Source: Desulfovibrio ferrophilus (GTDB lineage: Bacteria > Desulfobacterota > Desulfovibrionia > Desulfovibrionales > Desulfovibrionaceae). Taken from it: a DNA stretch of 64,000 nt. A program made the translations under genes and the position numbers. How positions within the stretch are numbered: the stretch's first letter is position 1; every line of letters begins with the position of its first letter. This document shows positions 14,499 through 29,186 of the stretch, in pieces. Below the pieces are notes generated by a model. The model did not search any database. It saw nothing but the letters and a program-made list of their open reading frames with translations, and was not told the DNA's origin. The stretch spans positions 3,244,905 to 3,308,904 of the forward strand of contig NZ_AP017378.1 in NCBI RefSeq assembly GCF_003966735.1, given 5' to 3'.

Positions 14499-14858
14499 TT
14501 ACGGAGCGGTGCGGGTTGCTGCTACGGCATCGATATCGGTGTCACCGGTACGGATGCGCAGTGACCGGGCAATGTCGAGGACGAAAACCACGCCGTCGCC
14601 TTCCTTGCCAGTCTGGGCACCGCTCTGGATGGCTTCGAGAGCGGGGTCCAGGAAGTCGTCGTTAATGCCGACTTCAATCCTGATCTTTTTCAAGAGGTTC
14701 ACTTCCATGGCCACGCCGCGGTAAGTTTCGGTGAAACCTTTCTGGCGGCCGGAGCCCAGCACGTTGGTCACGGTCATGCTGTAGATGCTTTTGGCGTAAA
14801 GGGCCTGCTTCACCGCGGTGAGGCGTTCGGGCCTGATGTATGCTACGATGAGTTTCAT
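14499..14858 (-). CDS. glnK: PII nitrogen regulatory protein linked to AmtB
   Basis: This 119-residue PII protein binds ATP/ADP and 2-oxoglutarate and would gate the AmtB channel encoded just upstream. The T-loop reads GRQKGFTETYRGVAMEV: Tyr46 is present, but position 51, the tyrosine uridylylated in enteric PII, is Met. GKEGDGVVFVLDI matches the B-loop. The start is the ATG at 14858, 17 bases after the amtB stop. It must be controlled by ligand binding alone or by another modification, because the usual uridylylation site is missing. Confidence 0.93.
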   Translation of the reverse strand: MKLIVAYIRPERLTAVKQALYAKSIYSMTVTNVLGSGRQKGFTETYRGVAMEVNLLKKIRIEVGINDDFLDPALEAIQSGAQTGKEGDGVVFVLDIARSLRIRTGDTDIDAVAATRTAP

Positions 14859-14875
14859 TGTATTCTCTCCCATCC

Positions 14876-16258
14876 TTATTCGTTGGAGAAGATCTGGAAG
14901 CCGCTGTAGGACTCCATGCCATGTTCGGTGATGTCGAGACCCTTGAGCTCTTCTTCTTCGCTGACGCGCACGCCAACCAGAGCCTTGACCAGTGAGAAGG
15001 CGATGAAGCCGGTGCCGAAGGCCCAGACAAACACTGCGCCGACGCCGATCAACTGGGTGACGAGCTGATCCATGCCGCCGCCGTAGAAGATGCCGGTGAT
15101 GCTGCCAAAGCCGGGGGCTGCAAAGAAGGCAACCATGATGGTACCGTACGCGCCGCATACGCCGTGGACGGAGATGGCACCGACCGGATCGTCAATCTTG
15201 AGGGTCTTGTCGATGAAGACGACGGACAGCACAACCAGGATACCTGCGCCGAAGCCGACAATCAATGAACCCACGGGGGACAGTTCATAACAACCGGCGG
15301 TGATGGCAACCAGGCCAGCCAGAGCGCCGTTCATGCTCATGGAAGGCTCGGGCTTGCCAAACATCAGCCAGGAGATGATCATGGCGCCGAGCATGCCTGC
15401 GGCAGCAGACAGGGAAGTGTTCACGGCGATGTAGCCGATGGTGCCGTCAGCAACGGTGGTGGAACCGGGGTTGAAACCGAACCAACCGAACCAGAGGATG
15501 AACACGCCGAGAGCTGCCATGGGGATGTTGTGACCGGGGATGGCATTGGCTTTGCCGTCAGGGGCGTATTTGCCCAGACGGGGGCCGACGACCATGGCGC
15601 CAGCCAGGGCAACCCAGGCACCCACGGAGTGGACGACGGTGGAGCCGGCGAAGTCGGCAAAGCCCATGGCTTCGAGCCAGCCGCCGGACTCGCCCCACAG
15701 CCCGCCCCAGCACCAGTGGCCGGACACGGGATAGATCAGGCCGGTGACGATGATGCTGATAATGATATAGGCAGAGAATTTGGTGCGCTCGGCCACGCCA
15801 CCAGAAACGATGGTGGCTGCCGTGGCTGCAAACACGGACTGGAAGAACCAGAAAGTCAGCGTCCACATGCCGTCAGCCGTCGTTGCATCGACGCCGCCCA
15901 GGGCAAAGCCGGAGCTGCCCACAAAGCCGCCGATGGAGTTGCCGAACATCAGGGCAAAACCGAACAGGAAGAACGCAACGCCTCCGGCGGAGAAGTCCAG
16001 GAAGTTCTTCATGATGATGTTGCCAGCGTTCTTGGCGCGGGTGAATCCGGCCTCGACCATGGAGAATCCGGCCTGCATGAACATGACCAGGATTGCTGCG
16101 ATCAGAGTCCACAGGATGTTTGCGTTGTCCTGTGCGAGCATGGCAGGAGCCTCTTCAGCCAGGGCATTGGCAGGACAGGAAAAAAGGATGGCCAGAGCCG
16201 CAGCCGCAAAAAAGAGCGACGAGAGCGGCCGTTTCCAGATGAGCCGGTGGTTTGACAT
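14876..16258 (-). CDS. amtB: Ammonium transporter AmtB
   Basis: This 460-residue Amt/Rh channel starts with a cleavable signal peptide (about 35 residues ending near NALAEEA), then 11 membrane segments. Family signatures are GAWVALAGAMVVGPRLGKY, FGWFGFNPGST and the second pore histidine near ISVHGVCGAYGT. The start ATG at 16258 has AGGAGG upstream, and the longer frame to 16363 would begin upstream of the sigma54 promoter. The promoter at 16334-16348 and the following glnK make this a standard nitrogen-limitation operon. The cytoplasmic tail contains EEEELKGLDITEHGMESY. Confidence 0.95.
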   Translation of the reverse strand: MSNHRLIWKRPLSSLFFAAAALAILFSCPANALAEEAPAMLAQDNANILWTLIAAILVMFMQAGFSMVEAGFTRAKNAGNIIMKNFLDFSAGGVAFFLFGFALMFGNSIGGFVGSSGFALGGVDATTADGMWTLTFWFFQSVFAATAATIVSGGVAERTKFSAYIIISIIVTGLIYPVSGHWCWGGLWGESGGWLEAMGFADFAGSTVVHSVGAWVALAGAMVVGPRLGKYAPDGKANAIPGHNIPMAALGVFILWFGWFGFNPGSTTVADGTIGYIAVNTSLSAAAGMLGAMIISWLMFGKPEPSMSMNGALAGLVAITAGCYELSPVGSLIVGFGAGILVVLSVVFIDKTLKIDDPVGAISVHGVCGAYGTIMVAFFAAPGFGSITGIFYGGGMDQLVTQLIGVGAVFVWAFGTGFIAFSLVKALVGVRVSEEEELKGLDITEHGMESYSGFQIFSNE

Positions 16259-16333
16259 GTGAATCCTCCTAGAGAGTGCGACAGCGTGGTTATTGAGTGT
16301 TGATAAAAAGGGCCGCAGTTCATGCACTACTAG

Positions 16334-16348
16334 GCAATATGAGTGCCA
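16334..16348 (-). promoter_or_regulatory. Sigma54 promoter of amtB-glnK
   Basis: On the minus strand TGGCAC (16348-16343), five bases, then TTGC (16337-16334) match the -24/-12 consensus exactly. The predicted start of transcription is near 16322, about 64 bases before the amtB ATG. The AT-rich DNA at 16360-16600 is where activator and IHF sites would be expected, but I could not assign any. Confidence 0.88.
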
Positions 16349-16662
16349 AATTATGCAACTCACTGATTTTATTGGGATAAGACATTTTTATGGTCTCTTA
16401 GGGCCAGGTTAAATGTTTTAAATTAACAATTTTGTACTAGCAGCAGGTGGCCTTTAAATACACAAATGTAAATTTAGCCGCTTTTGGTACAATTTGGAAG
16501 GGTGGTTTGGCACGATGTGATACAATTTTGTCAATTTAGGTAGTTTTTGGAGGTCTGAGGATCTCTGCAACTGTCCTGAACTGATGTGAGAGACGCTATT
16601 ATATATTATATTGATAAGGCTCTAGTATTCATGATTTTTTCTTGGGTAATGAAAAAAACAGC

Positions 16663-16691
16663 TTGACAGCGCACTTGCCTGCCGATATTCA
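16663..16691 (+). promoter_or_regulatory. Sigma70 promoter of the aromatic supercluster
   Basis: TTGACA at 16663-16668 is separated by 17 bases from TATTCA at 16686-16691. The leader-peptide ATG (16699) begins 8 bases after the last -10 base, which is where transcription is expected to start. Confidence 0.8.
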
Positions 16692-16698
16692 CCTCTCC

Positions 16699-16821
16699 AT
16701 GCTTAACGAGACCCTAACCACTGCCCAGCACACCTCCACCAACAACAGCGGGAACTATTCCTGGCTGTATTTTTGGTTTTGGTTTTTTATGCCGGCCTGC
16801 GGTCAGGGTGTGAGTCGTTAA
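16699..16821 (+). CDS. Aromatic leader peptide (attenuation control of shikimate entry)
   Basis: This is a 40-codon open frame between a consensus promoter and a terminator. Codons 20-30 read YSWLYFWFWFF: four Phe, three Trp and two Tyr codons in eleven, then MPACGQGVSR and a stop. That density of all three aromatic amino acids in such a short frame is what a ribosome-stalling leader for common aromatic synthesis should show. It has no Shine-Dalgarno sequence. The ATG sits at or within a base or two of the predicted transcription start, so it is probably translated from leaderless RNA. It precedes the ADH synthase gene by 128 bases. It is not homologous in sequence to pheL or trpL. Confidence 0.85.
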   Translation: MLNETLTTAQHTSTNNSGNYSWLYFWFWFFMPACGQGVSR

Positions 16822-16886
16822 CAGCAACGAGTCGATAATCGATTACACCAAGACCGCGGGCAGATACTGCTCGCGGTCTTTTTTTG
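16795..16886 (+). promoter_or_regulatory. Attenuator: antiterminator and terminator before ADH synthase
   Basis: The terminator stem AAGACCGCG (16850-16858) pairs with CGCGGTCTT (16872-16880), and TTTTT follows. The competing antiterminator is GCCTGCGGTC (16795-16804) with GACCGCGGGC (16852-16861): ten pairs, one of them G-T. A ribosome stalled at the aromatic codons (16756-16788) leaves 16795-16804 free to pair. A ribosome that reaches the stop at 16819 would mask it, so the terminator forms. Confidence 0.82.
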
Positions 16887-16949: not shown

Positions 16950-17753
16950 ATGATGTTAGGTAAAGCCGTTCGCTCGGAACGTATCTTCAACCGGAACACC
17001 GGGCGAACCATCATCGTGCCTCTGGACCACGGTGTGACCGTCGGCCCCATCTACGGCCTCATCGACATGCGCGACACCGTTAATCAGATCGCCGAAGGCG
17101 GAGCCAATGCCGTGCTCATGCACAAGGGCATGCCTCGTTGTTCGCACCGAGGCTCCGGCAAGGACGTCGGCCTGATCATTCACCTTTCTGCCAGCACCTC
17201 GCTGTCTCCCTTCCCCAACGCCAAGACCCTGTGTGGCACTGTGGAAGACGCCTTGCGCCTTGGCGCGGACGGTGTGTCCCTGCACGTCAACCTGGGTGAC
17301 GAGACCGAAAAGGACATGCTCAATGCCTTGGGCGAGATGACCACTCAGGCCTCGTACTGGGGCATCCCGGTGCTGGCCATGGTCTATGCCCGCGGCCCGC
17401 ACATCAAGAATGAGTATGATCCGGATGTAGTGCGTCATTGTGCACGCGTGGGTCAGGAACTGGGTGCGGATGTCGTCAAGGTGCCCTATACTGGTGATAT
17501 CGAGAGCTATTCCCGCGTGGTGGCGAGCTGTTGCATCCCCGTAGTCATCGCGGGCGGTCCCAAATTGGAATCCACCCGTGATTTGCTGCAGATGGTGCAC
17601 GACTCCGTGCAGGCTGGCGGCGCTGGCCTGTCCGTTGGACGCAACGTGTTCCAGCATCAGAATGTGACCCGCCTCCTGAAGGCCTTGAATGGTATCGTGC
17701 ATGAAGACTGGGACCTGGATCAGGCCGAAGACTTCATGGGCGAGGATATGTAG
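16950..17753 (+). CDS. 2-amino-3,7-dideoxy-D-threo-hept-6-ulosonate (ADH) synthase
   Basis: This 267-residue class I aldolase is of the archaeal ADH-synthase type (MJ0400-like). It makes the amino-sugar precursor used by dehydroquinate synthase II, replacing DAHP synthase. Visible: GRTIIVPLDHGVTVGP, VLMHKGMP, GADGVSLHVNLG, PVLAMVYARGP, and GADVVKVPYTGD with the Schiff-base lysine in VKVPY, then IAGGPK and GLSVGRNVFQH. The start ATG follows CAGGAGAGAAG. It is the first structural gene of the supercluster, behind the aromatic attenuator. A structured repeat separates it from the next gene. Confidence 0.9.
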   Translation: MMLGKAVRSERIFNRNTGRTIIVPLDHGVTVGPIYGLIDMRDTVNQIAEGGANAVLMHKGMPRCSHRGSGKDVGLIIHLSASTSLSPFPNAKTLCGTVEDALRLGADGVSLHVNLGDETEKDMLNALGEMTTQASYWGIPVLAMVYARGPHIKNEYDPDVVRHCARVGQELGADVVKVPYTGDIESYSRVVASCCIPVVIAGGPKLESTRDLLQMVHDSVQAGGAGLSVGRNVFQHQNVTRLLKALNGIVHEDWDLDQAEDFMGEDM

Positions 17754-17902: not shown

Positions 17903-18880
17903 GTGATGAAGAAAGTATTTGTACAAGCCATTCCCTTCGACAAGACGTTCGTGACTCTGGCCCTGGAATCCGGCGTGGATGCGATCATCGTGGAGCCCGC
18001 TGATGTGGACAAGGTCCGCGCTCTGGCCAAGGCCGAGGTCCGCACCCTGGACGATTTCGCGGTGGTTTCTCTGCAGAGTAAGGCTGATGAGGAAGTCGCG
18101 GTCAGCCAGATGCAGGCCGGACGTCAGGTTATTCTGAAGCGCGGGTGGGAGATCATCCCTGTGGAGAACATCCTGGCTCAGGGCTCGGGTCTGGGAGTTG
18201 AAGTGGCAACCTACGACGAGGCCGATCTGGCTGCCGGCATCCTGGAGCGCGGCGTGGATTTCGTGGTGGTTACAGCCGAAGGCATCGCCGACCTGAAAAG
18301 GATAGTGGCACAACTCAAGCTCAGTCAGGGAGTCGTGGGTATGGAGAAGGCGACCATCACGGCCATCGAGAATGCGGGCCTCGGGCATCGTGTCTGCGTG
18401 GACACCACCAGCATGCTCAAGACCGGCCAGGGGATGCTCATCGGCAATTCCAGTGCATTTACTTTTCTGGTTCATGCCGAGACCGAGTCCAACCCCTATG
18501 TGGCGGCTCGCCCCTTCCGGGTCAATGCCGGGGCCGTGCATGCCTACGCAGTAATGCCCGGTGACAAGACCACCTATCTGGAAGAACTTTGCGCCGGGCG
18601 CGAGGTGCTTGTTGTGGACGCTCAGGGTCATACCTCTCTGGCGGTGGTTGGTCGGGTCAAGGTTGAAGTTCGGCCCATGTTGCTGTTTACCGCCCGAACT
18701 GAATCCGGACGTGAAGGCAAGGTTTTTCTGCAGAATGCAGAGACCATTCGCCTGGTTCGGGTCGATGGTTCACCCGTGTCTGTGGTGACACTGGCTGAAG
18801 GCGATGAGATTTTGGTTCGTACCGACGAAGCGGGTAGACATTTCGGGATGCGTATTTCCGAGGACATCAAGGAAGACTAA
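17903..18880 (+). CDS. 3-dehydroquinate synthase II
   Basis: This 325-residue archaeal-type enzyme oxidatively deaminates and cyclises ADH to 3-dehydroquinate with NAD+, in place of AroB. Family features: DAIIVEPADVDKVR, EKATITAIENAGLG, VDTTSMLKTGQGMLIGNSS, SNPYVAARPFRVNAGAVHAY and GRVKVEVRPM. The frame begins GTG-ATG (17903 and 17906); either could be the start, with AAGGGA 12-15 bases upstream. Four bases separate its stop from pheA. Its pairing with ADH synthase is the archaeal route found in some sulfate reducers. Confidence 0.92.
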   Translation: MMKKVFVQAIPFDKTFVTLALESGVDAIIVEPADVDKVRALAKAEVRTLDDFAVVSLQSKADEEVAVSQMQAGRQVILKRGWEIIPVENILAQGSGLGVEVATYDEADLAAGILERGVDFVVVTAEGIADLKRIVAQLKLSQGVVGMEKATITAIENAGLGHRVCVDTTSMLKTGQGMLIGNSSAFTFLVHAETESNPYVAARPFRVNAGAVHAYAVMPGDKTTYLEELCAGREVLVVDAQGHTSLAVVGRVKVEVRPMLLFTARTESGREGKVFLQNAETIRLVRVDGSPVSVVTLAEGDEILVRTDEAGRHFGMRISEDIKED

Positions 18881-18884
18881 CTCC

Positions 18885-20015
18885 ATGACTGATGACAAGA
18901 ACACCACCGGAGCCCAGCAAATGAATGGCTTGCGCACTGAGATCGATGCCCTGGATCGTGAGATCCTAGAGCTTCTGAATCGCCGCGCGGGTTGTTCTCT
19001 GGAAGTTGGACGCGTCAAGGCCGATGCCAAGGATCTGATCTTCAAGCCCTTCCGCGAGAAGGAAGTCATGGCGAACCTGCTCGAAATGAGCCCTGGCCCC
19101 TTGCCCGAGGATCATCTGCGCGCTATCTATCGTGAAATTTTCTCCTCATCGCGCCGTTTGCAGCGCCCGCAGCAGGTGGCCTACCTGGGCCCCGAGGGCA
19201 CGTTCTCGTATTTTGCAGGAGTCGAGTTTTTGGGACATAGCGTGGACTTTCAGCCCATGCCCGGACTGCCCGATGTGTTCCAGGCCGTGTCCAGCGGCGA
19301 GACCGAGTTGGGAATCATCCCTCTGGAGAACTCCCTGCACGGCACCGTCGGTCAGAGCCTGGACCTGTTCCTGCGCCACGAGGTATTCATTCTCTCGGAG
19401 CTGTTCTGCAAGATCAGCCACAATGTTCTGTCTCAGGCCAAGCGCCTGGCAGACATCAAGACAGTGTACTCGCATCCGCAGCCCCTGGCGCAGTGCGAGC
19501 GCTGGTTGCGCAATAACCTGCCCAGCGCCAAGCTGATACCTACTGAAAGCACCGCTGCTGCCGCCGTCCGCGTGCAGGATGATCCCGAATCCGCTGCCAT
19601 CGGACACAAGAGCCTGGCTGCCATGTTCGGGTTGAATGTCCTGGCCCGTGGGGTGGAAGATTTGCCCGACAACTGGACGCGATTCGTCGTCATTGGTCGC
19701 AAGCAGGCCTCGCAGGGCAACCGCGACAAGACTTCCATGCTCTTCACCCTGCCGGACAAGCCCGGCTCCCTGGTCAACGTGCTCTCGGTCATTGCCACCC
19801 AGGGCATCAATATGAAGAAGCTGGAGTCCCGGCCCATGCGCGGGGAAAAATGGAAGTACGTGTTTTTCGTGGATGTCGAATGCGATCTTTCCCTGGAAGA
19901 GTATTCCAAGGCCATGACCGAGGTCGCGGACAATTGCCATATCATGCGCATCCTCGGCAGTTATCCGGCCGGGCCGTCCCTGGATGTCTCCGCCAATGTG
20001 GGCGATGCTGAATAA
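18885..20015 (+). CDS. pheA: Bifunctional chorismate mutase / prephenate dehydratase
   Basis: This 376-residue P-protein makes phenylpyruvate from chorismate. The N-terminal chorismate mutase (about 10-90) shows LRTEIDALDREILELLNRRA. The dehydratase (about 95-270) shows VAYLGPEGTFSYFA, GIIPLENSLHGTVG and NWTRFVVIG. A C-terminal ACT domain (about 285-360) shows KPGSLVNVLSVIATQGINMKKLESRP, the Phe-binding GALV/ESRP-type region, so feedback inhibition by phenylalanine is expected. The start ATG at 18885 is four bases after the previous stop. Confidence 0.95.
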   Translation: MTDDKNTTGAQQMNGLRTEIDALDREILELLNRRAGCSLEVGRVKADAKDLIFKPFREKEVMANLLEMSPGPLPEDHLRAIYREIFSSSRRLQRPQQVAYLGPEGTFSYFAGVEFLGHSVDFQPMPGLPDVFQAVSSGETELGIIPLENSLHGTVGQSLDLFLRHEVFILSELFCKISHNVLSQAKRLADIKTVYSHPQPLAQCERWLRNNLPSAKLIPTESTAAAAVRVQDDPESAAIGHKSLAAMFGLNVLARGVEDLPDNWTRFVVIGRKQASQGNRDKTSMLFTLPDKPGSLVNVLSVIATQGINMKKLESRPMRGEKWKYVFFVDVECDLSLEEYSKAMTEVADNCHIMRILGSYPAGPSLDVSANVGDAE

Positions 20016-20060
20016 CGAGCCAACACCGCAACCGCGGTCTTGAATAGAGAGGAACAAGCA

Positions 20061-20285
20061 ATGCAAGTCAATTACGATCCCGAGAAGGATACCCTGAAAA
20101 TTGTGCTGTCATCCACGCCTGTGAAGAAGTGTGAGTATGACAATCCCGGCATCATCCTCGGTTACGGTGGAGACGGGACCCTTGTTGATGTGGAGATTCC
20201 TGAGGCCTCGCGCCGTGTGGATGACCCCAAGTCCGTGGACTTGTGCGTCCGTGGTCGTAATGTTCAGGGTATGAAACTCCTGTAG
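20061..20285 (+). CDS. DUF2283 family small protein
   Basis: This 74-residue protein starts MQVNYDPEKDTLKIVL and has GIILGYGGDGTLVDVEIPEASRRV, matching the DUF2283 pattern (YDxxxDxLxI...DxxGxLVGIEILxAS). DUF2283 proteins are small beta-rich proteins of unknown function, often near toxin-antitoxin or metabolic genes. Here it lies between pheA and aroA, six bases before aroA, inside an operon otherwise made only of aromatic enzymes. A start at 20040 is possible, but 20061 fits family length. Confidence 0.8.
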   Translation: MQVNYDPEKDTLKIVLSSTPVKKCEYDNPGIILGYGGDGTLVDVEIPEASRRVDDPKSVDLCVRGRNVQGMKLL

Positions 20286-20291
20286 GGGATA

Positions 20292-21626
20292 ATGATGCAG
20301 ACCACCGGCACAGTTCATATCCAGGCTCCTGCCAGCAAATCTATGTCGCATCGCGCGGTCATTGCCGCTTCCCTTGCAGACGGGCGCAGCCTGCTGCACA
20401 ACGTTCTGGATAGCGACGACCTGACACGCACCATGGATTGTCTGAAGGCCTGCGGGGCCAGCTTTGAATTCAAGGGACGCGACCTGGAGGTTGTTGGCGT
20501 TGCGGGTCGTCCCCGTGGCGGTTCGGATGAGCCTGCCGATCTCTACATGCACGAATCCGGCACCACCTGCCGTTTGATGACGGGAGTGGCTGCAGCCGGG
20601 CAGGGGTTGTTCCGGGTGCGAGGCGTGCAGCGCATGCACGAGCGTCCCATCGGAGCTCTGGCCAAGGCCTTGGCTTCCCAGGGCGTTGACTTTACCTGGG
20701 AGGGCCAGGAAGGCTACCCACCGCTGGTGATGCGGACCGAAGGCCTCCCGGGTGGCGAGATCACCGTGGATGTGGGCGAGTCCAGCCAGTATCTTTCCGG
20801 TTTGCTTCTGGCCGCAGTCTGTGCCGGATCCGAGACCGTGATCAATATTGGCGGGACCAAGGTCGTTTCCTGGCCATACGTGGCACTGACCCTGCAAACA
20901 CTTGAAGATTTTGGTATTTCATTTGCCGTTGAATGCCAGGAAGCCGGGCGTTGGGTGGAGACTGCCTGGAGGGCCGTGACCACCGTGGCCCCCGGACAGA
21001 TCCGTTTCCGTGTGTCTCCCGGTGCCTACGCCGCAGGCGATCGCCGGGTGGAAGGCGACTGGAGTAATGCTTCGTATTTCCTGGCCGCTGGTGCCGTTGG
21101 CCCTCGCCCGGTGGTGGTTTCGGGACTGCGCCGTGATTCCCTGCAGGGGGATCGCGCCATGCTTTCCATTCTGGAACGCATGGGCGCCCGCATCACCTGG
21201 CAGGACGATGCCGTGACCGTGGCTCCGCCCGAATCCGGCAGGCTTGTCGGGCTCGAAGTGGATATGGCGTCCTGCCCGGACATCGTGCCCACCGTGGCCG
21301 CTGCAGCAGCCTTTGCGGATGGCCCAACGCTGATCAGCGGTGTGGCGCATCTGCGTATCAAGGAATGTGACCGTCTGGACGGCACCGCCGGGACCCTGCG
21401 CAAGGCCGGGACCACAGTGGAGGTGTTGGACGACGGGCTGAAGATCATCCCCGGTGCTCTGGCCCAAGAGGGTGATCTTCCCGTGACCACCTTTGGCGAT
21501 CATCGCATGGCCATGAGTTCGGCCTTGTTTGCCCTGGCCGGGATGTCCGTGAATTGTGACGATGCGGGTTGCGTCTGCAAATCCTTCCCCACATTCTGGG
21601 ACGAATGGAACAAGGTTGTTTCTTAA
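20292..21626 (+). CDS. aroA: 3-phosphoshikimate 1-carboxyvinyltransferase (EPSP synthase)
   Basis: This 444-residue enzyme joins shikimate 3-phosphate and PEP. Motifs: ASKSMSHRAVIAAS, ESGTTCRLMTGVAA, MHERPIGALAKAL, GESSQYLSGLLLAA, LRIKECDR and FGDHRMAMS. The LMTGVAA form, rather than LTAAV, is seen in diverse bacterial enzymes. The start ATG (20292, with a second ATG directly following) lies just after the DUF2283 gene. The intermediate genes for shikimate (aroD, aroE, aroK, aroC) are not in this window. Confidence 0.95.
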   Translation: MMQTTGTVHIQAPASKSMSHRAVIAASLADGRSLLHNVLDSDDLTRTMDCLKACGASFEFKGRDLEVVGVAGRPRGGSDEPADLYMHESGTTCRLMTGVAAAGQGLFRVRGVQRMHERPIGALAKALASQGVDFTWEGQEGYPPLVMRTEGLPGGEITVDVGESSQYLSGLLLAAVCAGSETVINIGGTKVVSWPYVALTLQTLEDFGISFAVECQEAGRWVETAWRAVTTVAPGQIRFRVSPGAYAAGDRRVEGDWSNASYFLAAGAVGPRPVVVSGLRRDSLQGDRAMLSILERMGARITWQDDAVTVAPPESGRLVGLEVDMASCPDIVPTVAAAAAFADGPTLISGVAHLRIKECDRLDGTAGTLRKAGTTVEVLDDGLKIIPGALAQEGDLPVTTFGDHRMAMSSALFALAGMSVNCDDAGCVCKSFPTFWDEWNKVVS

Positions 21627-21659
21627 CTTTTTCAATGAACTTAGAGTATTGAGTTGATT

Positions 21660-22424
21660 ATGAACATTAAGAACATCCTCATTATCGGTGCACAGGGCCA
21701 AATGGGTCGTCTGTTCGTCCGGCGTAGCGAAGAAGCCGGACTGACAGTGCGCGGTTTGGACCGACCACTGACGCCCGAGGCCATGGCCCAGGGCGTGCGC
21801 GGGGCTGATATGGTGCTGCTGGCAGTGCCTGCGGCTGCCATGGCCGATGTCTCGGGGATGTGCGCGGCTGTGATGGAACCGCACCAGATTCTGGCTGACA
21901 TCTGTTCGGTCAAGACCGGCCCCATGGCTGATATGCTGACCGCCCACACCGGGCCGGTCGTAGGCACACATCCCTTGTTCGGGCCTGCTCCCGATCCGGA
22001 GGATGTGCGCGTGGCCATGGTGCCCGGGCGTGATGATGCGGCTTTCGCGGCTGTGTCTGCCTACATGGAGCAGCTGGGCTTTACTTCCTTTACCACGGAT
22101 AGTGATGAACATGATCTGGCCATGGCCTCCATTCAGGGCCTCAATTTCGTGACCACGGTGTCCTATCTGGCGACCCTTGCCAATCGGCCCGAGTTCGAAC
22201 GGTTCATCACCCCCAGCTTCAATCGCCGTCTGGACGCGGCGCGCAAGATGCTGACCGAAGACAGCGAGCTGTTCTCCAGTCTTGTGGAAATCAATCCCTA
22301 CACACAGGAAGCCATTCGCAACTTCCGTTCCCTGCTGAACATCGCCGCTGGTGGAGACATCGAGCTTCTCTCCGCGCGCGCCAATTGGTGGTGGCGAAAT
22401 GGGCATAGTGGGGGGGGAGTGTAA
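21660..22424 (+). CDS. tyrA: Prephenate dehydrogenase, with Trp-Trp-Trp tail
   Basis: This 254-residue NAD-dependent dehydrogenase converts prephenate to 4-hydroxyphenylpyruvate. Visible: IIGAQGQMGRLFVRR (dinucleotide site), DICSVKTGPMADM, VGTHPLFGPAP and EHDLAMASIQGLNF. It lacks a chorismate mutase or ACT domain. The ATG at 21660 is preceded in frame by TTG at 21654. The C-terminus reads ANWWWRNGHSGGGV: three consecutive Trp codons (22386-22394) twelve codons before the stop, just upstream of a terminator that precedes trpE. I infer that the tail serves as the stalling peptide for trp attenuation. Confidence 0.9.
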   Translation: MNIKNILIIGAQGQMGRLFVRRSEEAGLTVRGLDRPLTPEAMAQGVRGADMVLLAVPAAAMADVSGMCAAVMEPHQILADICSVKTGPMADMLTAHTGPVVGTHPLFGPAPDPEDVRVAMVPGRDDAAFAAVSAYMEQLGFTSFTTDSDEHDLAMASIQGLNFVTTVSYLATLANRPEFERFITPSFNRRLDAARKMLTEDSELFSSLVEINPYTQEAIRNFRSLLNIAAGGDIELLSARANWWWRNGHSGGGV

Positions 22425-22518: not shown

Positions 22519-23934
22519 ATGGAACCAGTACGGTTGCAGCAGTACGGACAATGGCTGCCTGCGGATATTCAGACCCCCATCAGCCTTTTTCTGGGTCTGG
22601 TGGGACACAAGCAGGGTATCCTGTTGGAAAGTGCAGAGGTGGATGGCCGCTTTGGTCGCTACTCCATCATTGCCTGGAACTACGCCCTGCGTCTGTCCTG
22701 CAAGGACGGCAAACTTGAAGTCGGCGTACGTGATGGCCGTTTGGATGCGTTCAAGGAATTCAAGGGACGGCCCTTTATGGACGGTGTTCGTCAGGTCATG
22801 AAGAACCTGAACATCGAGCCTGCCGAAGGCTTCGAGGAGCTGCCGCCCATCACCCGCGGGCTGGCCGGATATTTCGGCTATGGCGTGGCCGGGATGTTCG
22901 AACCCAAGCTGGAGAATCAGCTGCATCCCGAAGATGCCGAGGCCTGTCTGGTGCTGCCCGGCAATGTGGTGATGTTCGACCATCTCTACCACCGTCTGTG
23001 TTTTCTGACCCTGAACAAGGGCGTCAAGCCGCATTCGGACCACAAGAGCGTGATGCGTGCACCCATGCCGCCGGATATCGGCGAACACAAGGTCAACCCC
23101 GGTGAAGCTGCCTACAAGAAGAGTGTGTCCGATGCCATCGAACTGATCCGCCAGGGCGAGTGTATTCAGACCGTGCTCTCCACACGCTTTTCGGCCCCCT
23201 TCGAGGGTGACTCCTTTGTGCTGTATCGCAGACTCAGGCAGATCAACCCATCGCCCTACATGTTCTACATGCGGCTGCCCAAGCTGGAGCTATTTGGCTC
23301 CTCACCGGAGATGCTGGTGCGTTGTAGAGGCGACGAACTGACCACCTGTCCCATCGCGGGCACTCGTGTGCGCGGCGAAAACGCCGCCGAGGACGAACGT
23401 CTGGCCGAGGAACTGCTGGCCGATCCCAAGGAACGCGCCGAGCACGTGATGCTGGTGGATCTGGGGCGCAATGACCTGGGACGGTTGTCCGAGCCGGGTA
23501 GCGTGAAGGTGGACAAGTTCATGCAGGTCGAGCGTTTTTCGCATGTGATGCACATCACTTCCTATGTCAGCGGCAAACTGCGCAAAGGGCTGGATGCATT
23601 GGATGTGTTGGGGGCGACCTTCCCGGCGGGAACGGTTTCGGGCGCGCCCAAGGTGCGGGCCATGGAGATTATCGCCGATTTGGAACGCGAGCCCCGTGGT
23701 CCCTATGCGGGAGCCATCGGCTGGATCGGTCTGGATGAAGGGCGCGTTGATCTGGATACCGGTATCACCATTCGCAGCATGTGGGTGCGCGATAATGTGC
23801 TCTCATGGCAGGCCGGTGCGGGCATCGTCTTTGATTCGGACCCCGCCAAGGAATGGGCCGAGTGCAACAACAAGGCCCGTGTGATTCGCGAGACACTGGC
23901 TGGCAAGGGAGGCTGCGATGTTCTTGCTGATTGA
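22519..23934 (+). CDS. trpE: Anthranilate synthase component I
   Basis: This 471-residue chorismate-binding enzyme makes anthranilate with TrpG. Motifs: LLESAEVDGRFGRYSI (the LLES feedback site near residue 36), SPEMLVRCRGDEL, TCPIAGTRVRGE, RAEHVMLVDLGRNDLGR, FPAGTVSGAPKVRAMEII and DSDPAKEWAECNNKA. The start follows AAGGAGGAG, one of the strongest ribosome sites in the window. It is the first gene of the trp block, 30 bases after the terminator T-run. The LLES element suggests tryptophan feedback inhibition. Confidence 0.96.
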   Translation: MEPVRLQQYGQWLPADIQTPISLFLGLVGHKQGILLESAEVDGRFGRYSIIAWNYALRLSCKDGKLEVGVRDGRLDAFKEFKGRPFMDGVRQVMKNLNIEPAEGFEELPPITRGLAGYFGYGVAGMFEPKLENQLHPEDAEACLVLPGNVVMFDHLYHRLCFLTLNKGVKPHSDHKSVMRAPMPPDIGEHKVNPGEAAYKKSVSDAIELIRQGECIQTVLSTRFSAPFEGDSFVLYRRLRQINPSPYMFYMRLPKLELFGSSPEMLVRCRGDELTTCPIAGTRVRGENAAEDERLAEELLADPKERAEHVMLVDLGRNDLGRLSEPGSVKVDKFMQVERFSHVMHITSYVSGKLRKGLDALDVLGATFPAGTVSGAPKVRAMEIIADLEREPRGPYAGAIGWIGLDEGRVDLDTGITIRSMWVRDNVLSWQAGAGIVFDSDPAKEWAECNNKARVIRETLAGKGGCDVLAD

Positions 23935-24499
23935 TAATTATGACTCCTTCACTTTCAATCTGGTGCAGGCTTTTCAGTTACTGGGCAAGGACCCCGTGGT
24001 CGTCAAGAATGATGACCCGCAGGTGCTGGAACTGGCCGCAAGCCCGGATTTGGAGATGGTCTGCCTGTCTCCCGGGCCGAGCCGCCCTGTGAATGCTGGC
24101 CTGTGCCTGAATTTTCTGGAGAAGCTGCCACACTCGGTGCCCGTGCTGGGCGTCTGCCTGGGGCATCAGACTCTGGGGCATTTTGCCGGAGCCGAGGTCA
24201 TCCAGGCCGGGCTGATCATGCATGGCAAGACCTCCATGATTACTCACGATGGCGAGGGGCTGTTTGCGGACATGCCCAATCCCGTGGAGATTGGTCGTTA
24301 CCACTCGCTGTTGGTGGATGTGGACAATGCGCCCGAGGACGTCCGCAAGCTGTTGACCGTCACTGCCCGTACCGAGGCTGGCGAGGTCATGGCCATGAAA
24401 TACAATGATCGTCCCTGGGTGGGCGTGCAGTTCCACCCGGAATCCGTCCTGACCCCCGAAGGTCTGAAACTGCTGGCCCGGTTCCCCGAAGGACTCTAG
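23918..24499 (+). CDS. trpG: Anthranilate synthase component II (glutamine amidotransferase)
   Basis: This 193-residue class I glutamine amidotransferase supplies ammonia to TrpE. It has IDNYDSFTFNLVQ, LSPGPSRP, the nucleophile in GVCLGHQTLGHFAG, and VQFHPESVLTPEG with the catalytic His and Glu. It overlaps the 3' end of trpE by 17 bases. It is a separate gene, not fused to trpD. The same subunit could also serve PabB. Confidence 0.96.
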   Translation: MFLLIDNYDSFTFNLVQAFQLLGKDPVVVKNDDPQVLELAASPDLEMVCLSPGPSRPVNAGLCLNFLEKLPHSVPVLGVCLGHQTLGHFAGAEVIQAGLIMHGKTSMITHDGEGLFADMPNPVEIGRYHSLLVDVDNAPEDVRKLLTVTARTEAGEVMAMKYNDRPWVGVQFHPESVLTPEGLKLLARFPEGL

Positions 24500-24561
24500 G
24501 CATGAGCAGTTTGAGGCGAAGAATCCTGTTCAACAGCATGCAACGCAAAGGAGCGATGAAT

Positions 24562-25563
24562 ATGGCTATGCATATGGCGGACATCTTGGAGCAGTTGGCC
24601 TTTCACAAGGATCTGCCCCAGGACATGGCAAACGAGAGTTTTGCCCGATTAATGGATGGCACAATGACCCCGGCTCAGGCTGGTTCCTTCCTGATGGGCC
24701 TGAAGACCAAGGGCGAAACCGCCGAGGAACTCGCCGCAGCAGTCAACGCTGCCCTGTCCCACGCACGCATGGTTCCCGGGCTTTCGGGCAAGCGCATCGA
24801 TACCTGTGGCACCGGTGGTGACGGCTCCAGCAGTTTCAACTGTTCCACTGCCGTGGCATTGACCTTGGCCGGGATGGGCTATCAGGTGGTCAAGCATGGC
24901 AACCGTTCGGTCTCCAGCACCTGTGGCAGTGCCGATGCCCTGGAGGCTCTGGGGCTGAATCTGAATCTCCAGCCGGGTGACGTGGCGGCAGAACTGGCAC
25001 GGCGCAATTTCGTGTTCCTGTTCGCCCCGGGCTATCATCCGGCCTTCAAGCACATCATGCCCGTGCGACAGGAGATCGGCTGCCGAACCCTGTTCAATCT
25101 GCTGGGCCCTCTGCTGAATCCCGCGCGACCCACTCACCAGTTGCTGGGGATCGCCATTCCCGGTTTTCTGCACCGCATGGCCAAGGTTCTGTCCCTGACA
25201 GGGGTTCAGAAAGCCTGCGTAGTCCACGGAGCCGGTGGGTTCGACGAGCTGACACCCTTTGGTGTAAATCAGGTCGTGTACGTGCGCGATGGCTGGTTGC
25301 GTGAGGATGTCCTTGACCCCGCCAGACTGGGCATGGCCGCCAGCAGCCCCGAAGACATGGCTGTGAAGGACAAGGACGAGGCTGTGGCTGTGCTGCGTGA
25401 GATTCTTGCCGGAGGCGGACCCGAGCCCATGCGCGACATGGTGGCCCTGAATGCCGGAATGTGTGTGCACCTGTTGGAGGATGATTTGTCCCTGGCCGAT
25501 GGTGTGGACAAGGCACGTGAGGCCCTGGCCTCCGGTGCCGGGGAGAAGACCCTCAATGCTTAG
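24562..25563 (+). CDS. trpD: Anthranilate phosphoribosyltransferase
   Basis: This 333-residue enzyme transfers phosphoribose from PRPP to anthranilate. Motifs: DTCGTGGDGSSSFNCST, VKHGNRSVSSTCGSADALEALG, FLFAPGYHPAFKHIMPVRQEIG and RTLFNLLGPLLNPA. Several in-frame ATGs exist (24502, 24556, 24562). I chose 24562 because GGAG stands 8 bases upstream and the length then matches the family. It overlaps trpC by eight bases. Confidence 0.94.
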   Translation: MAMHMADILEQLAFHKDLPQDMANESFARLMDGTMTPAQAGSFLMGLKTKGETAEELAAAVNAALSHARMVPGLSGKRIDTCGTGGDGSSSFNCSTAVALTLAGMGYQVVKHGNRSVSSTCGSADALEALGLNLNLQPGDVAAELARRNFVFLFAPGYHPAFKHIMPVRQEIGCRTLFNLLGPLLNPARPTHQLLGIAIPGFLHRMAKVLSLTGVQKACVVHGAGGFDELTPFGVNQVVYVRDGWLREDVLDPARLGMAASSPEDMAVKDKDEAVAVLREILAGGGPEPMRDMVALNAGMCVHLLEDDLSLADGVDKAREALASGAGEKTLNA

Positions 25564-26329
25564 GAAATTCGCCGACGCCAAGCGCTCCGAGATCATGGAG
25601 CTGCTGGGCCGGGATGCGCGGGGCGAGATGCCTGCGCCCATGACCGGTCCACGACCTTCGTTTTCCGGGGCGCTCAGAACCAAGGGGCCGGGCGCAGTCA
25701 TCGCGGAATACAAGCGGGCCTCGCCCAGCAAGGGCGTCATCAATCTGGAGTTGACGGCTGCGGATGTGGCGCGGGGCTATGCGGGAGGCGGTGCCGCCTG
25801 CATGTCCGTTTTGACGGAAGTGGATTATTTTCAAGGTGATCTGGCTTATCTGGACGAAGCACTGGTTGCAGGGATTCCGTTGCTGCGCAAGGATTTCATC
25901 CTGCATCCGTTGCAGATCCGGCGGACGGCTGCAACCCCGGCTTCCGCCGTGCTGCTCATTGCTCGCATGGTGGAGACTCGGGAGTTGTCCGAACTGCTCG
26001 AACTGTGCGATCACTATGGTCTGGAAGCAGTGACCGAGGTCTTCGACGCCAAGGATCTGGCCAAGGCCCGCGAGGCCGGGGCCAGGATCATCCAGGTCAA
26101 CAATCGCGATCTGGACAGCCTGACCATCAGCCTTGATGTGTCGCGCAGTCTGATCGGTGCCAAGACCCCGGAGGAACTCTGGATCAGTGCCAGCGGCATC
26201 GACCATGGCTCGCAGATTACCGAATTGGCTTCTTTGGGCTTTGATGCCGTGCTCATCGGCACCTTCCTGATGGAGGGAGGTGATCCCGAGGGCGCTCTGA
26301 AACGCTTGATCAAGGAAACAGACGCATGA
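25556..26329 (+). CDS. trpC: Indole-3-glycerol phosphate synthase
   Basis: This 257-residue TIM barrel closes the indole ring. Visible: VIAEYKRASPSKG (catalytic Glu and Lys), SVLTEVDYFQG, LLRKDFILHPLQI (KDF), VNNRDLDSLTI and SASGIDHGS. The start ATG at 25556 lies inside the end of trpD. The enzyme is not fused to TrpF, unlike in enterics. The trpF start overlaps its stop by four bases (ATGA). Confidence 0.95.
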   Translation: MLRKFADAKRSEIMELLGRDARGEMPAPMTGPRPSFSGALRTKGPGAVIAEYKRASPSKGVINLELTAADVARGYAGGGAACMSVLTEVDYFQGDLAYLDEALVAGIPLLRKDFILHPLQIRRTAATPASAVLLIARMVETRELSELLELCDHYGLEAVTEVFDAKDLAKAREAGARIIQVNNRDLDSLTISLDVSRSLIGAKTPEELWISASGIDHGSQITELASLGFDAVLIGTFLMEGGDPEGALKRLIKETDA

Positions 26330-26964
26330 CCGACAGCCGACAGCTCATCAAGATCTGTGGCATGACCCGCCAGCAGGACGCCACGGCTTGCGTGGACGCA
26401 GGCGTGGACATGACCGGATTCATTTTTCATGAGTCCAGCCCGCGCAACATCCAGCCCGGTGCCGCCGCTGCCATCGATACAGGCTCTGCCTTACGGGTGG
26501 GCGTGTTCGTACGCCAGTCCCAGCAGCAGGTGTTGGAGATCATGGATCGGGCCAAGCTCGATCTGGCCCAGTTGTGTGGTGATCAGGACCGGGCCTTTTG
26601 CCGGGCCGTGGGAGCCACGCGCGTGATTCGCGTCTTTTGGCCCGAGCGCCACAAGATGCGTGCTGCCCTGGAAGATGAGATGTCGGATTATGACGGGTGC
26701 ATGGCCTATGCCCTGCTTGATGCCGGGATGTCCGGCGGCGGTCATGGCCGTGCCCAGGATTTCGGGTTGCTCAGGGGACTGGATGCTCCGGTGCCCTGGA
26801 TGCTGGCCGGGGGTCTGAGTGTGGACAATCTGCCCGAGGCCATGGCCCAGTGCCAGCCGCAAGGCTTTGATTTGAATTCCGGTCTGGAATCGGCACCCGG
26901 CTTGAAGGACGCGGAGCTTGTCCGTCGAGCCGTGGCTCTGATCAGAAGCGGGAATAACGAATAA
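26326..26964 (+). CDS. trpF: Phosphoribosylanthranilate isomerase
   Basis: This 212-residue TIM barrel performs the Amadori rearrangement of phosphoribosylanthranilate. It has KICGMTRQQDA with the catalytic Cys, GFIFHESSPRNI and FDLNSGLESAPGLKD (phosphate-binding loop and C-terminal signature). YALLDA carries the general-acid Asp. It is translationally coupled to trpC by the ATGA overlap and followed 38 bases later by trpB. Confidence 0.93.
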   Translation: MTDSRQLIKICGMTRQQDATACVDAGVDMTGFIFHESSPRNIQPGAAAAIDTGSALRVGVFVRQSQQQVLEIMDRAKLDLAQLCGDQDRAFCRAVGATRVIRVFWPERHKMRAALEDEMSDYDGCMAYALLDAGMSGGGHGRAQDFGLLRGLDAPVPWMLAGGLSVDNLPEAMAQCQPQGFDLNSGLESAPGLKDAELVRRAVALIRSGNNE

Positions 26965-27002
26965 TACAGCATTGAAGGCCTGTGTACGGCCTGGAGGATA
27001 GA

Positions 27003-28169
27003 ATGAAGAAAGGGTATTTTGGAGACTTCGGCGGGCGTTTTTCGCCCGAACTGCTCATGCCTCCCCTGCTGGAGGTTGAGGACGCCTACAAGACCATTGT
27101 CAAAAGCAAGCCTTTCCTGACGGAATTCGGGCGTATTCTGACCGAGTATGTGGGGCGTTCAACGCCTCTGACCTTTTGTCCCAATCTGAGCAGGGAACTG
27201 GGCTTCAACCTGTATCTGAAGCGCGAGGACCTGGCGCACACCGGCGCGCACAAGATCAACAACACCATCGGGCAGGCCCTCTTGGCCAAGCATATGGGCA
27301 AGAAGACCCTGCTGGCTGAAACCGGTGCGGGGCAGCACGGCGTGGCCACGGCCACGGCTGCGGCCTATCTGGGTCTGAATTGTATCGTTTACATGGGCGC
27401 CACCGACGTAAAGCGTCAGGCCCACAATGTGCGGCGTATGCAGCTTCTGGGCGCCGAGGTCCGGCCCGTTGAATCCGGCACCAAGACCCTGAAGGACGCC
27501 ATCAACGCAGCCTTCCGATTCTGGATTTCCGAGCAGGCCGATACCCATTACTGCTTCGGTACTGCGGCCGGTCCGCATCCCTTCCCGGCACTGGTGCGTG
27601 ACTTCCAGTCCGTGGTGGGCCACGAGGCACGCCAACAGAGCGTGGAGCAGTTCGGCACTCTGCCGGATCTGCTTGTGGCCTGTGTGGGCGGTGGCTCCAA
27701 TGCCATTGGTCTGTTCCATGCCTTCATGGACGACCGTGACGTGCGCATGGTGGGTGTGGAAGCCGCAGGTTCCGGCGAGCCCGGCTGTTACCATTCCATG
27801 GCGATCTGCAAGGGCACACCGGGTGTTTTCCACGGTGCACGCACCCAGTTGTTGCAGACCGAAGACGGGCAGATCGAGCCTTCGCATTCCATCGCTCCCG
27901 GCCTGGATTATCCGGGCGTCGGTCCCGAGCATGCCTGGTTGGATGCCTCGGGCCGTGCCGAGTACGTCAGCGTCAACGATGCCCAGGCCTTGAATGCCTT
28001 CCAGTCCCTGTGTCGGCACGAGGGCATTATCCCGGCTTTGGAATCCTCCCACGCCGTAGCCTATGTGCTGGAATACAAGGATGACATCCCCGCAGGTTCC
28101 AAGGTCATCGTTAACCTCTCGGGGCGAGGGGACAAGGATATGGGCATCATCGAAGAATATCTGGGGTAA
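27003..28169 (+). CDS. trpB: Tryptophan synthase beta chain (operon copy)
   Basis: This 388-residue PLP enzyme of the TrpB1 type joins indole and serine. Motifs: YFGDFGGRFSPEL, LKREDLAHTGAHKINNTIGQ with the PLP lysine, [26 protein letters not shown] and [10 protein letters not shown]. The start at 27003 has GGAGG upstream; an ATG-less extension to 26982 is less likely. A structured repeat follows its stop, 255 bases before trpA, an unusually long gap for a trpBA pair that must supply a complex. Confidence 0.96.
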   Translation: MKKGYFGDFGGRFSPELLMPPLLEVEDAYKTIVKSKPFLTEFGRILTEYVGRSTPLTFCPNLSRELGFNLYLKREDLAHTGAHKINNTIGQALLAKHMGKKTLLAETGAGQHGVATATAAAYLGLNCIVYMGATDVKRQAHNVRRMQLLGAEVRPVESGTKTLKDAINAAFRFWISEQADTHYCFGTAAGPHPFPALVRDFQSVVGHEARQQSVEQFGTLPDLLVACVGGGSNAIGLFHAFMDDRDVRMVGVEAAGSGEPGCYHSMAICKGTPGVFHGARTQLLQTEDGQIEPSHSIAPGLDYPGVGPEHAWLDASGRAEYVSVNDAQALNAFQSLCRHEGIIPALESSHAVAYVLEYKDDIPAGSKVIVNLSGRGDKDMGIIEEYLG

Positions 28170-28171
28170 GG

Positions 28172-28300
28172 AAGGCCATCCATGGCGCACGGTCTGCGGC
28201 GTTGCTGCGGATTGTTCAGCCCTTCATGTATGTTGAATATACATCGGACCTGAACAATCTTTGCGCCTGACATCCCGCACACCCTGAACGGCCTTTGGCC
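28172..28300 (+). repeat. Structured intergenic repeat, copy E
   Basis: It starts two bases after the trpB stop. The outer arms AAGGCC (28172-28177) and GGCCTT (28290-28295) pair. The inner arms GATTGTTCAG (28210-28219) and CTGAACAATC (28250-28259) pair perfectly. The apical stem is ATGTAT/ATACAT, then TTTGCGCCTGACATCCCG follows. It occupies most of the trpB-trpA gap. Confidence 0.82.
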
Positions 28301-28424
28301 CGGGGGATGCACATTCCAAACGAATTTCCCGGTGGGGAGCGATTGGAATGGAAAAGTCGGAAAATTGAATCAGATCGGATAGAAAAGCATCACACTGCGG
28401 TGAAGATCGCAGAGGAGAAAATAC

Positions 28425-29186
28425 ATGTCGAATTTGAGTGAAAAAATACGAGAGGCCAATGCCAAGGGCCGCAAGGCTGTGATTCCCTATCTGCCCGCCG
28501 GGTTCCCGGGGCTCACCGAGTTCTGGGACGTGATCAAGGAACTGGACGCCGCCGGGGCGGACGTCATTGAAATCGGTGTGCCGTTCTCCGACCCTGTTGC
28601 CGATGGTCCCACCGTGGAACAGGCCTGTCTGGAAAGCCTGGAGCTGGGCGTGACACTGAAATGGATTCTGGAGGAACTGCCCAAGCATCGCGCCGGGATC
28701 AAGGCCGGAATCGTGCTCATGGGCTATTTGAATCCGTTCCTGCAATACGGGTTGGAGAAACTTGCCAAGGACGCAGCCGCAGCTGGTGTTGGCGGGCTGA
28801 TCATCCCGGACGTGCCCTATGAGGAAGCCCAGGAGATGAAGGAGATTCTTGGTGCCCAGGGCATCGATTTCATCTATCTGGTGGGCCTCAATACCCCGCC
28901 CGAGCGTTTGAAGATGTATGCGAGTAATGCCAGCGGCTACGTGTATCTGGTGTCCGTGATGGGCATTACCGGTGCGCGCACCAGCCTGCCCAAGGAGATC
29001 GGTGACAAGATCATCGAGGTCAAGGAAGCCTTTGACGTTCCTCTGGCCCTTGGGTTTGGCATCAAGACTCCAGACCAGTTGGAAGCCTTTGGCGATAAGC
29101 TGGATGGGGCGGTTATTGGCTCCGCGCTTATCGACCATATTCGGGGGGGAGGTTCGGCCAAGGAGTTTCTCTCACCTTGGGTCTAG
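28425..29186 (+). CDS. trpA: Tryptophan synthase alpha chain
   Basis: This 253-residue TIM barrel cleaves indole-3-glycerol phosphate to indole for TrpB. Visible: AVIPYLPAGFPGL, DVIEIGVPFSDPVADGPT (catalytic Glu and the Asp loop), PDVPYEEA, GYVYLVSVMGITGARTSLP and ALGFGIKTPDQ. The start follows GCAGAGGAG. It is the last gene of the trp block, separated from trpB by repeat E and followed by the double-hairpin repeat F. Confidence 0.96.
   Translation: MSNLSEKIREANAKGRKAVIPYLPAGFPGLTEFWDVIKELDAAGADVIEIGVPFSDPVADGPTVEQACLESLELGVTLKWILEELPKHRAGIKAGIVLMGYLNPFLQYGLEKLAKDAAAAGVGGLIIPDVPYEEAQEMKEILGAQGIDFIYLVGLNTPPERLKMYASNASGYVYLVSVMGITGARTSLPKEIGDKIIEVKEAFDVPLALGFGIKTPDQLEAFGDKLDGAVIGSALIDHIRGGGSAKEFLSPWV

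Follow-up and report, generated by a model that had tools for sequence, protein, structure and literature searches.

A predicted ribosome-mediated attenuator with phenylalanine, tyrosine and tryptophan control codons before the ADH synthase-headed aromatic operon of Desulfovibrio ferrophilus and its relatives

The Escherichia coli leaders pheL, trpL and pheST begin with a start codon served by a Shine-Dalgarno sequence, chiefly read one control amino acid each and share with the locus described here a ribosome-mediated type of attenuation, in which an antiterminator and a terminator lie just past the control codons. The ilvGMEDA and thr leaders of the same bacterium belong to other pathways and resemble the present one in that a single leader reads several end products of its operon; we know of no indication that their composition follows operon content or isozyme duplication. 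At the entry of the shikimate pathway itself, the AroR leader of Corynebacterium glutamicum carries the run Phe-Tyr-Phe upstream of aroF and, in the account available to us, does not respond to Tyr availability (Neshat 2014, in PMC11802643). It is like the present leader in holding more than one aromatic amino acid and in attenuating an entry enzyme; it differs, as far as that account goes, in that it serves a classical DAHP synthase, has a run for which no Trp codon is reported and shows no effect of Tyr (PMC11802643), whereas here the enzyme is an ADH synthase (ADHS), the control codons are nine and of three kinds, and the operon covers the whole pathway including trp. The uORFC-13-1 motif of Acholeplasma (24 sequences) is a candidate Phe-containing upstream ORF with a terminator before a shikimate entry gene, and differs in its classical aroF, its bacterial group and its restriction to Phe (PMC8632094). 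Closest of all is an attenuator that was predicted in 2005 before the aroA'-aroB'-pheA-aroF-tyrA-trp supraoperon of D. vulgaris (PMC1173090, Table 7), that is, before the same operon in a related organism, in a text that contains no leader peptide, codon logic or solo copies. Known already are the AroR run (PMC11802643), the predicted D. vulgaris attenuator (PMC1173090), leaders with several kinds of control residue and the use of aromatic codons for attenuation in pheL and trpL. The preliminary description of this locus, which knew of no described case with ADHS, holds for the leader peptide and has to give way for the attenuator as such; its statement that leader peptides usually carry one amino acid has a partial precedent to the contrary, with two aromatics, in AroR (PMC11802643). 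In the searchable literature, outside which most subscription papers lie, we found no description of a three-aromatic leader, of leader codons that match operon content, or of duplicated ADHS genes with Phe- or Tyr-specific leaders.

In a 64-kb stretch of D. ferrophilus DNA (the window), we find a 40-codon leader ORF (ATG at 16699, TAA at 16819-16821) with the product MLNETLTTAQHTSTNNSGNYSWLYFWFWFFMPACGQGVSR (40 aa), in which four Phe, three Trp and two Tyr codons make up nine of the 11 codons at 16756-16788 (Y16756, W16762, Y16768, F16771, W16774, F16777, W16780, F16783 and F16786; Table 1), giving the run Y-S-W-L-Y-F-W-F-W-F-F. It is the sole stretch in any frame of the whole window with at least 7 aromatic codons in 11, the runner-up having at most 6, and the best of 60 Markov simulations of the same length reaches 7/11, as against 9/11 in the leader. 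A chance T-rich tract is ruled out by this simulation together with conservation in relatives, so that the aromatic-rich frame and codon counts first reported for this DNA are confirmed. The promoter needs more qualification: it had been called a consensus promoter, but only its -35 element is perfect, the -10 element TATTCA being weak, and a promoter consensus scan of the window sequence calls none at the leader. We nevertheless take it as real, because relatives conserve both TTGACA and its distance from the ATG: TTGAC(A/G/T/C) lies 29-34 nt 5' of the leader ATG in 122/138 leaders, and the -10 element of most relatives starts with TA 12-14 nt before the ATG and ends mostly 6-8 nt before it. 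In the same fixed-spacing survey, a C directly precedes the ATG in 103 leaders, and a Shine-Dalgarno-like motif occurs in 14 of the 122 leaders with fixed spacing versus 10 of the remaining 16; the deeper-branching trp-less operons mostly have both a longer promoter-ATG spacing and such a motif. The simplest reading of this geometry is that transcription starts at the leader ATG, and since the ATG sits at a fixed promoter distance, at the predicted transcription start (122/138), the leader ORF is probably leaderless. An alternative upstream TTG start (59 aa) was dropped because the promoter spacing is kept by the ATG and not by the TTG. The trpL of Sinorhizobium meliloti, a Trp leader of trpE(G) alone, is a leaderless leader peptide, the 5' end of its RNA being the start codon of the leader ORF (PMC7298713); the start site predicted here from sequence would give a similar arrangement.

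Table 1. Positions of the predicted regulatory elements and downstream genes in the window
Feature	Position	Strand	Basis or remark
-35 element TTGACA (perfect)	16663..16668	+	sequence; conserved in relatives
-10 element TATTCA (weak)	16686..16691	+	17-nt spacer; 7 nt before ATG; sequence, relatives
Leader ORF	16699..16821	+	sequence, simulation, relatives; ATG at predicted transcription start
Possible 1:2 (protector) pairing 16759-16769/16798-16808	16759..16808	+	folding; weakly supported in relatives
Antiterminator 16795-16804/16852-16861 + 16807-16812/16844-16849	16795..16861	+	folding, shuffles, covariation
Intrinsic terminator hairpin 16850-16880 + T tract	16850..16886	+	sequence; equivalent in 129/138 relatives
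ADH synthase (aroA')	16950..17753	+	NCBIfam TIGR01949 above cut-off
3-dehydroquinate synthase II (aroB')	17903..18880	+	NCBIfam NF002628 above cut-off
Chorismate mutase/prephenate dehydratase (pheA)	18804..20015	+	true start probably internal
DUF2283 small protein within operon	20040..20285	+	Pfam PF10049
aroA, EPSP synthase	20292..21626	+	Pfam PF00275
tyrA, prephenate dehydrogenase	21654..22424	+	Pfam PF02153
trpE-G-D-C-F-B-A	22519..29186	+	trpE by Pfam, trpA by PF00290

The genes that follow form a single array of the entry enzymes and all three branches, to Phe, Tyr and Trp (ADHS-DHQS-pheA-DUF2283-aroA-tyrA-trpEGDCFBA), in which we take five genes to be trpG, D, C, F and B from family knowledge and from the gene order conserved in relatives. 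Within the array, no terminator-like site stands out from chance, and the gene order suggests a single transcript through to trpA. No classical DAHP synthase turned up at another place in the genome, whose sole PF00793 protein is KdsA, which leaves ADHS as the one entry enzyme identified; TrpR was looked for and not found, and control by it was accordingly dropped. The DUF2283 protein between pheA and aroA is seen in this genus and in one further compared locus (L049). Divergent to the leader, on the minus strand at 14499-16363, are an ammonium transporter gene and a PII-like gene, both named by sequence resemblance. The same genome has a third, more distant gene resembling ADHS and aldolases (L254, in G000), about 40% identical, which perhaps encodes an aldolase that makes the ADHS substrate.

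Between the leader ORF and the first gene lies an intrinsic terminator of 14 pairs followed by T7 (about -25 kcal/mol), which is found where the preliminary description had placed it and has a counterpart in 129/138 relatives. The ten-pair antiterminator proposed there to compete with it also has the correct coordinates (10 pairs with G-U counted), but the actual structure is longer by a second helix that stacks on the first, bringing the total to -35.8 kcal/mol (z -5.3) versus about -25 kcal/mol for the terminator. In 114/129 leaders of the relatives, pairing between the 5' arm of the terminator and the strand that follows the aromatic run is better than in 95% of shuffles, and it mostly begins 3-8 nt past the final aromatic codon. 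Because the antiterminator core is conserved, the terminator arm of another locus often pairs almost equally well (median rank 0.30). Of the cells of this helix in alignment A1, 91.8% are paired, versus 37-43% when it is slid by 1-3 columns, and one of its pairs occurs as UA, CG, UG and AU. The locus thus has the mutually exclusive antiterminator, starting just past the control codons, that characterizes trp-type attenuators. A protector-like 1:2 pairing is possible in the window (-19.7 kcal/mol, z -3.2) and exceeds shuffles in only 47/129 relatives.

On account of the leader, the terminator, the covarying antiterminator, the fixed promoter-ATG spacing and the match of codons to operon, we consider it very probable that the region is a transcription attenuator of the ribosome-mediated trp type, with control codons that are drawn from the three aromatic amino acids and matched to the operon. 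In the mechanism that we infer, transcription would begin at, or 1-2 nt from, the leader ATG, and a ribosome would load on the leaderless AUG; if Phe-, Tyr- or Trp-tRNA were short, any one of them being presumably sufficient, it would stall in the aromatic run, leaving 16795-16812 free to pair with 16844-16861 and so to sequester the 5' arm of the terminator, and polymerase would continue into ADHS-DHQS-pheA-aroA-tyrA-trpEGDCFBA. With all three tRNAs charged, the ribosome would reach the UAA at 16819 and cover about 16801-16831, which would break the antiterminator and let the terminator form. If the footprint of the E. coli ribosome is assumed, stalls at Y16756, W16762, Y16768, F16771, W16774, F16777 or W16780 leave 16795-16804 free; under the same assumption, the antiterminator strand is predicted to be free after a Phe stall in 73/73, a Tyr stall in 73/73 and a Trp stall in 67/73 full operons. 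Full operons would thereby read all three amino acids, and solo ADHS duplicates mostly Phe alone or Tyr alone.

A comparison of about 200 ADHS loci shows the leader to be real and conserved. Within the order, 160 loci from about 100 genomes were compared, with operon content called by tblastn, and leader composition there follows what lies downstream. The preliminary description had set beforehand that related genomes should carry the leader and terminator; a leader with Phe, Tyr and Trp precedes 80/80 full operons including trpE (77 found by script, and L189, L190 and L224, whose leaders lie farther upstream, by eye). Each leader of the aro operons without trp (n = 13) has Phe and Tyr, and Trp occurs in 6/13, so the match of leader codons to operon content is not absolute: these six trp-less operons keep a Trp codon. 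Four genomes without any trpA (G008, G063, G066 and G085) have a leader without Trp. Overall, Trp is present and absent in 80 and 0 leaders with trp downstream versus 7 and 47 without (Fisher p 5e-29, relatedness ignored). Where trp operons are split off elsewhere, seven have an upstream short ORF bearing a Trp run (e.g., IWWWR, FWWWR, GWWWR and LWWWL), which are candidate Trp leaders. Codons of at least two end products in one leader place the present case among the multi-amino-acid leaders. In six loci (L050, L054, L067, L074, L173 and L202), a tandem ADHS pair heads the full operon behind one leader with Phe, Tyr and Trp.

The stand-alone ADHS genes (n = 54) extend this pattern: 41 have a leader and 13 have none, the former comprising 22 Phe-only or nearly Phe-only leaders (up to ten Phe), 14 Tyr-rich ones (YYYY), four with Phe and Tyr and a single one with all three, so that Trp occurs in 1/41. 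The second ADHS copy of the window genome (L080) itself has the leader run NFFGFYYF, without Trp. On the ADHS tree, Phe-only leaders need three changes and Tyr-only leaders five (29 for all labels versus a shuffled mean of 70.8), which argues that re-specification of the leader happened several times. With codon choice tracking both operon content and the duplicated ADHS genes, the earlier interpretation of the leader as an attenuator of aromatic supply is supported. Aromatic ORFs at L092, L095 and L102 are false matches, and these loci were reclassified as having none. Five solo genes that lack the leader (L084, L089, L092, L093 and L095) have in common a conserved upstream stretch (CTTGATTTTTGGAACCACTCCTGGCTAGATCA-like), perhaps a promoter under another control. 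We lean towards a broader reading, in which a codon-programmed layer of regulation spans the phylum: one attenuator would read three products at the entry enzyme, duplicated ADHS genes would become Phe- or Tyr-specific through leader codons, not allosteric sites, and initiation would be leaderless. If true, this is a transcription-level counterpart of the division among AroF, AroG and AroH that evolved several times.

The alternative with the most weight, although we regard it as rather unlikely, is that the attenuator is real and only one or two amino acids act (Phe, or Phe with Trp), the other codons being neutral fill-ins. The composition of a leader is by itself no proof that all three amino acids act, because Tyr availability is without effect in AroR despite its Phe-Tyr-Phe run, transcription there being raised, according to the account cited, by Phe limitation only (PMC11802643); moreover, Phe and Tyr codons are one base apart and interchange between close relatives (L047 versus L048). 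Such fill-ins do not agree, however, with the presence of Trp in 80/80 operons with trp versus 7/54 without, with the Tyr-only and Phe-only solo leaders or with the absence of Trp from the leaders of the four trpA-less genomes, from which each amino acid looks individually selected. Switching by a protein or metabolite bound to the RNA (TRAP-like, a T-box or a new riboswitch), with the ORF incidental, would be within the reach of so strong a terminator and antiterminator, which could work with any signal; it is very unlikely, given that an incidental ORF would neither track operon content nor keep a 29-34 nt promoter-ATG spacing, that TrpR was not found and that an Rfam search of the window gives no match at the gathering score, including Trp_leader, Phe_leader, riboswitches and T-box. 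Weak matches to other described RNA families (SdsR, trpB-motif and Leu_leader) fall below threshold and were rejected.

Two further explanations give the peptide itself a function. It might be a TnaC-like nascent-peptide arrest switch, in which the peptide within the exit tunnel responds to a free aromatic amino acid and not to uncharged tRNA, as its shortness, its richness in aromatics and a conserved C-terminal R-x-C-G or R-x-R-G could suggest; we hold this to be extremely improbable, since Phe, Tyr and Trp interchange by position, lengths vary, the N-terminal half is not conserved, and the antiterminator RNA, which overlaps their codons, accounts for the conservation of the C-terminal residues. 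That the ORF is a functional small hydrophobic protein, with a terminator that merely ends its transcript, is hardly credible at all: the hydrophobic core is indeed rich in aromatics, but the protein sequence is conserved only in aromatic class and in antiterminator-encoded residues, the composition tracks operon content, and covariation links the antiterminator to the arm of the terminator.

Read as a three-aromatic attenuator, the leader would offer a readable code of pathway regulation, its amino acids stating the purpose of the downstream genes, and would predict functions for duplicated ADHS genes as well as aromatic control in bacteria where DAHP synthase and TrpR are not found. The full, split, duplicated and trp-less versions constitute a natural experiment on the re-specification of a sensor and raise the testable question of how three signals are combined by a single attenuator of the ribosome-mediated type. 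Beyond the order, most ADHS-DHQS operons with a readable upstream region in other families of the phylum have a leader rich in Phe and Tyr, some with Trp, and a terminator before the gene; a few have no leader, and a leader of the Phe/Tyr-rich type was not seen in the archaeal and spirochaete ADHS loci examined. In two loci from other classes of the phylum (L284 and L286), the ADHS leaders end in GLPT instead of CGxG and the terminator core is a different one, GCCGTGG, which suggests that another sequence has taken the place of the antiterminator.
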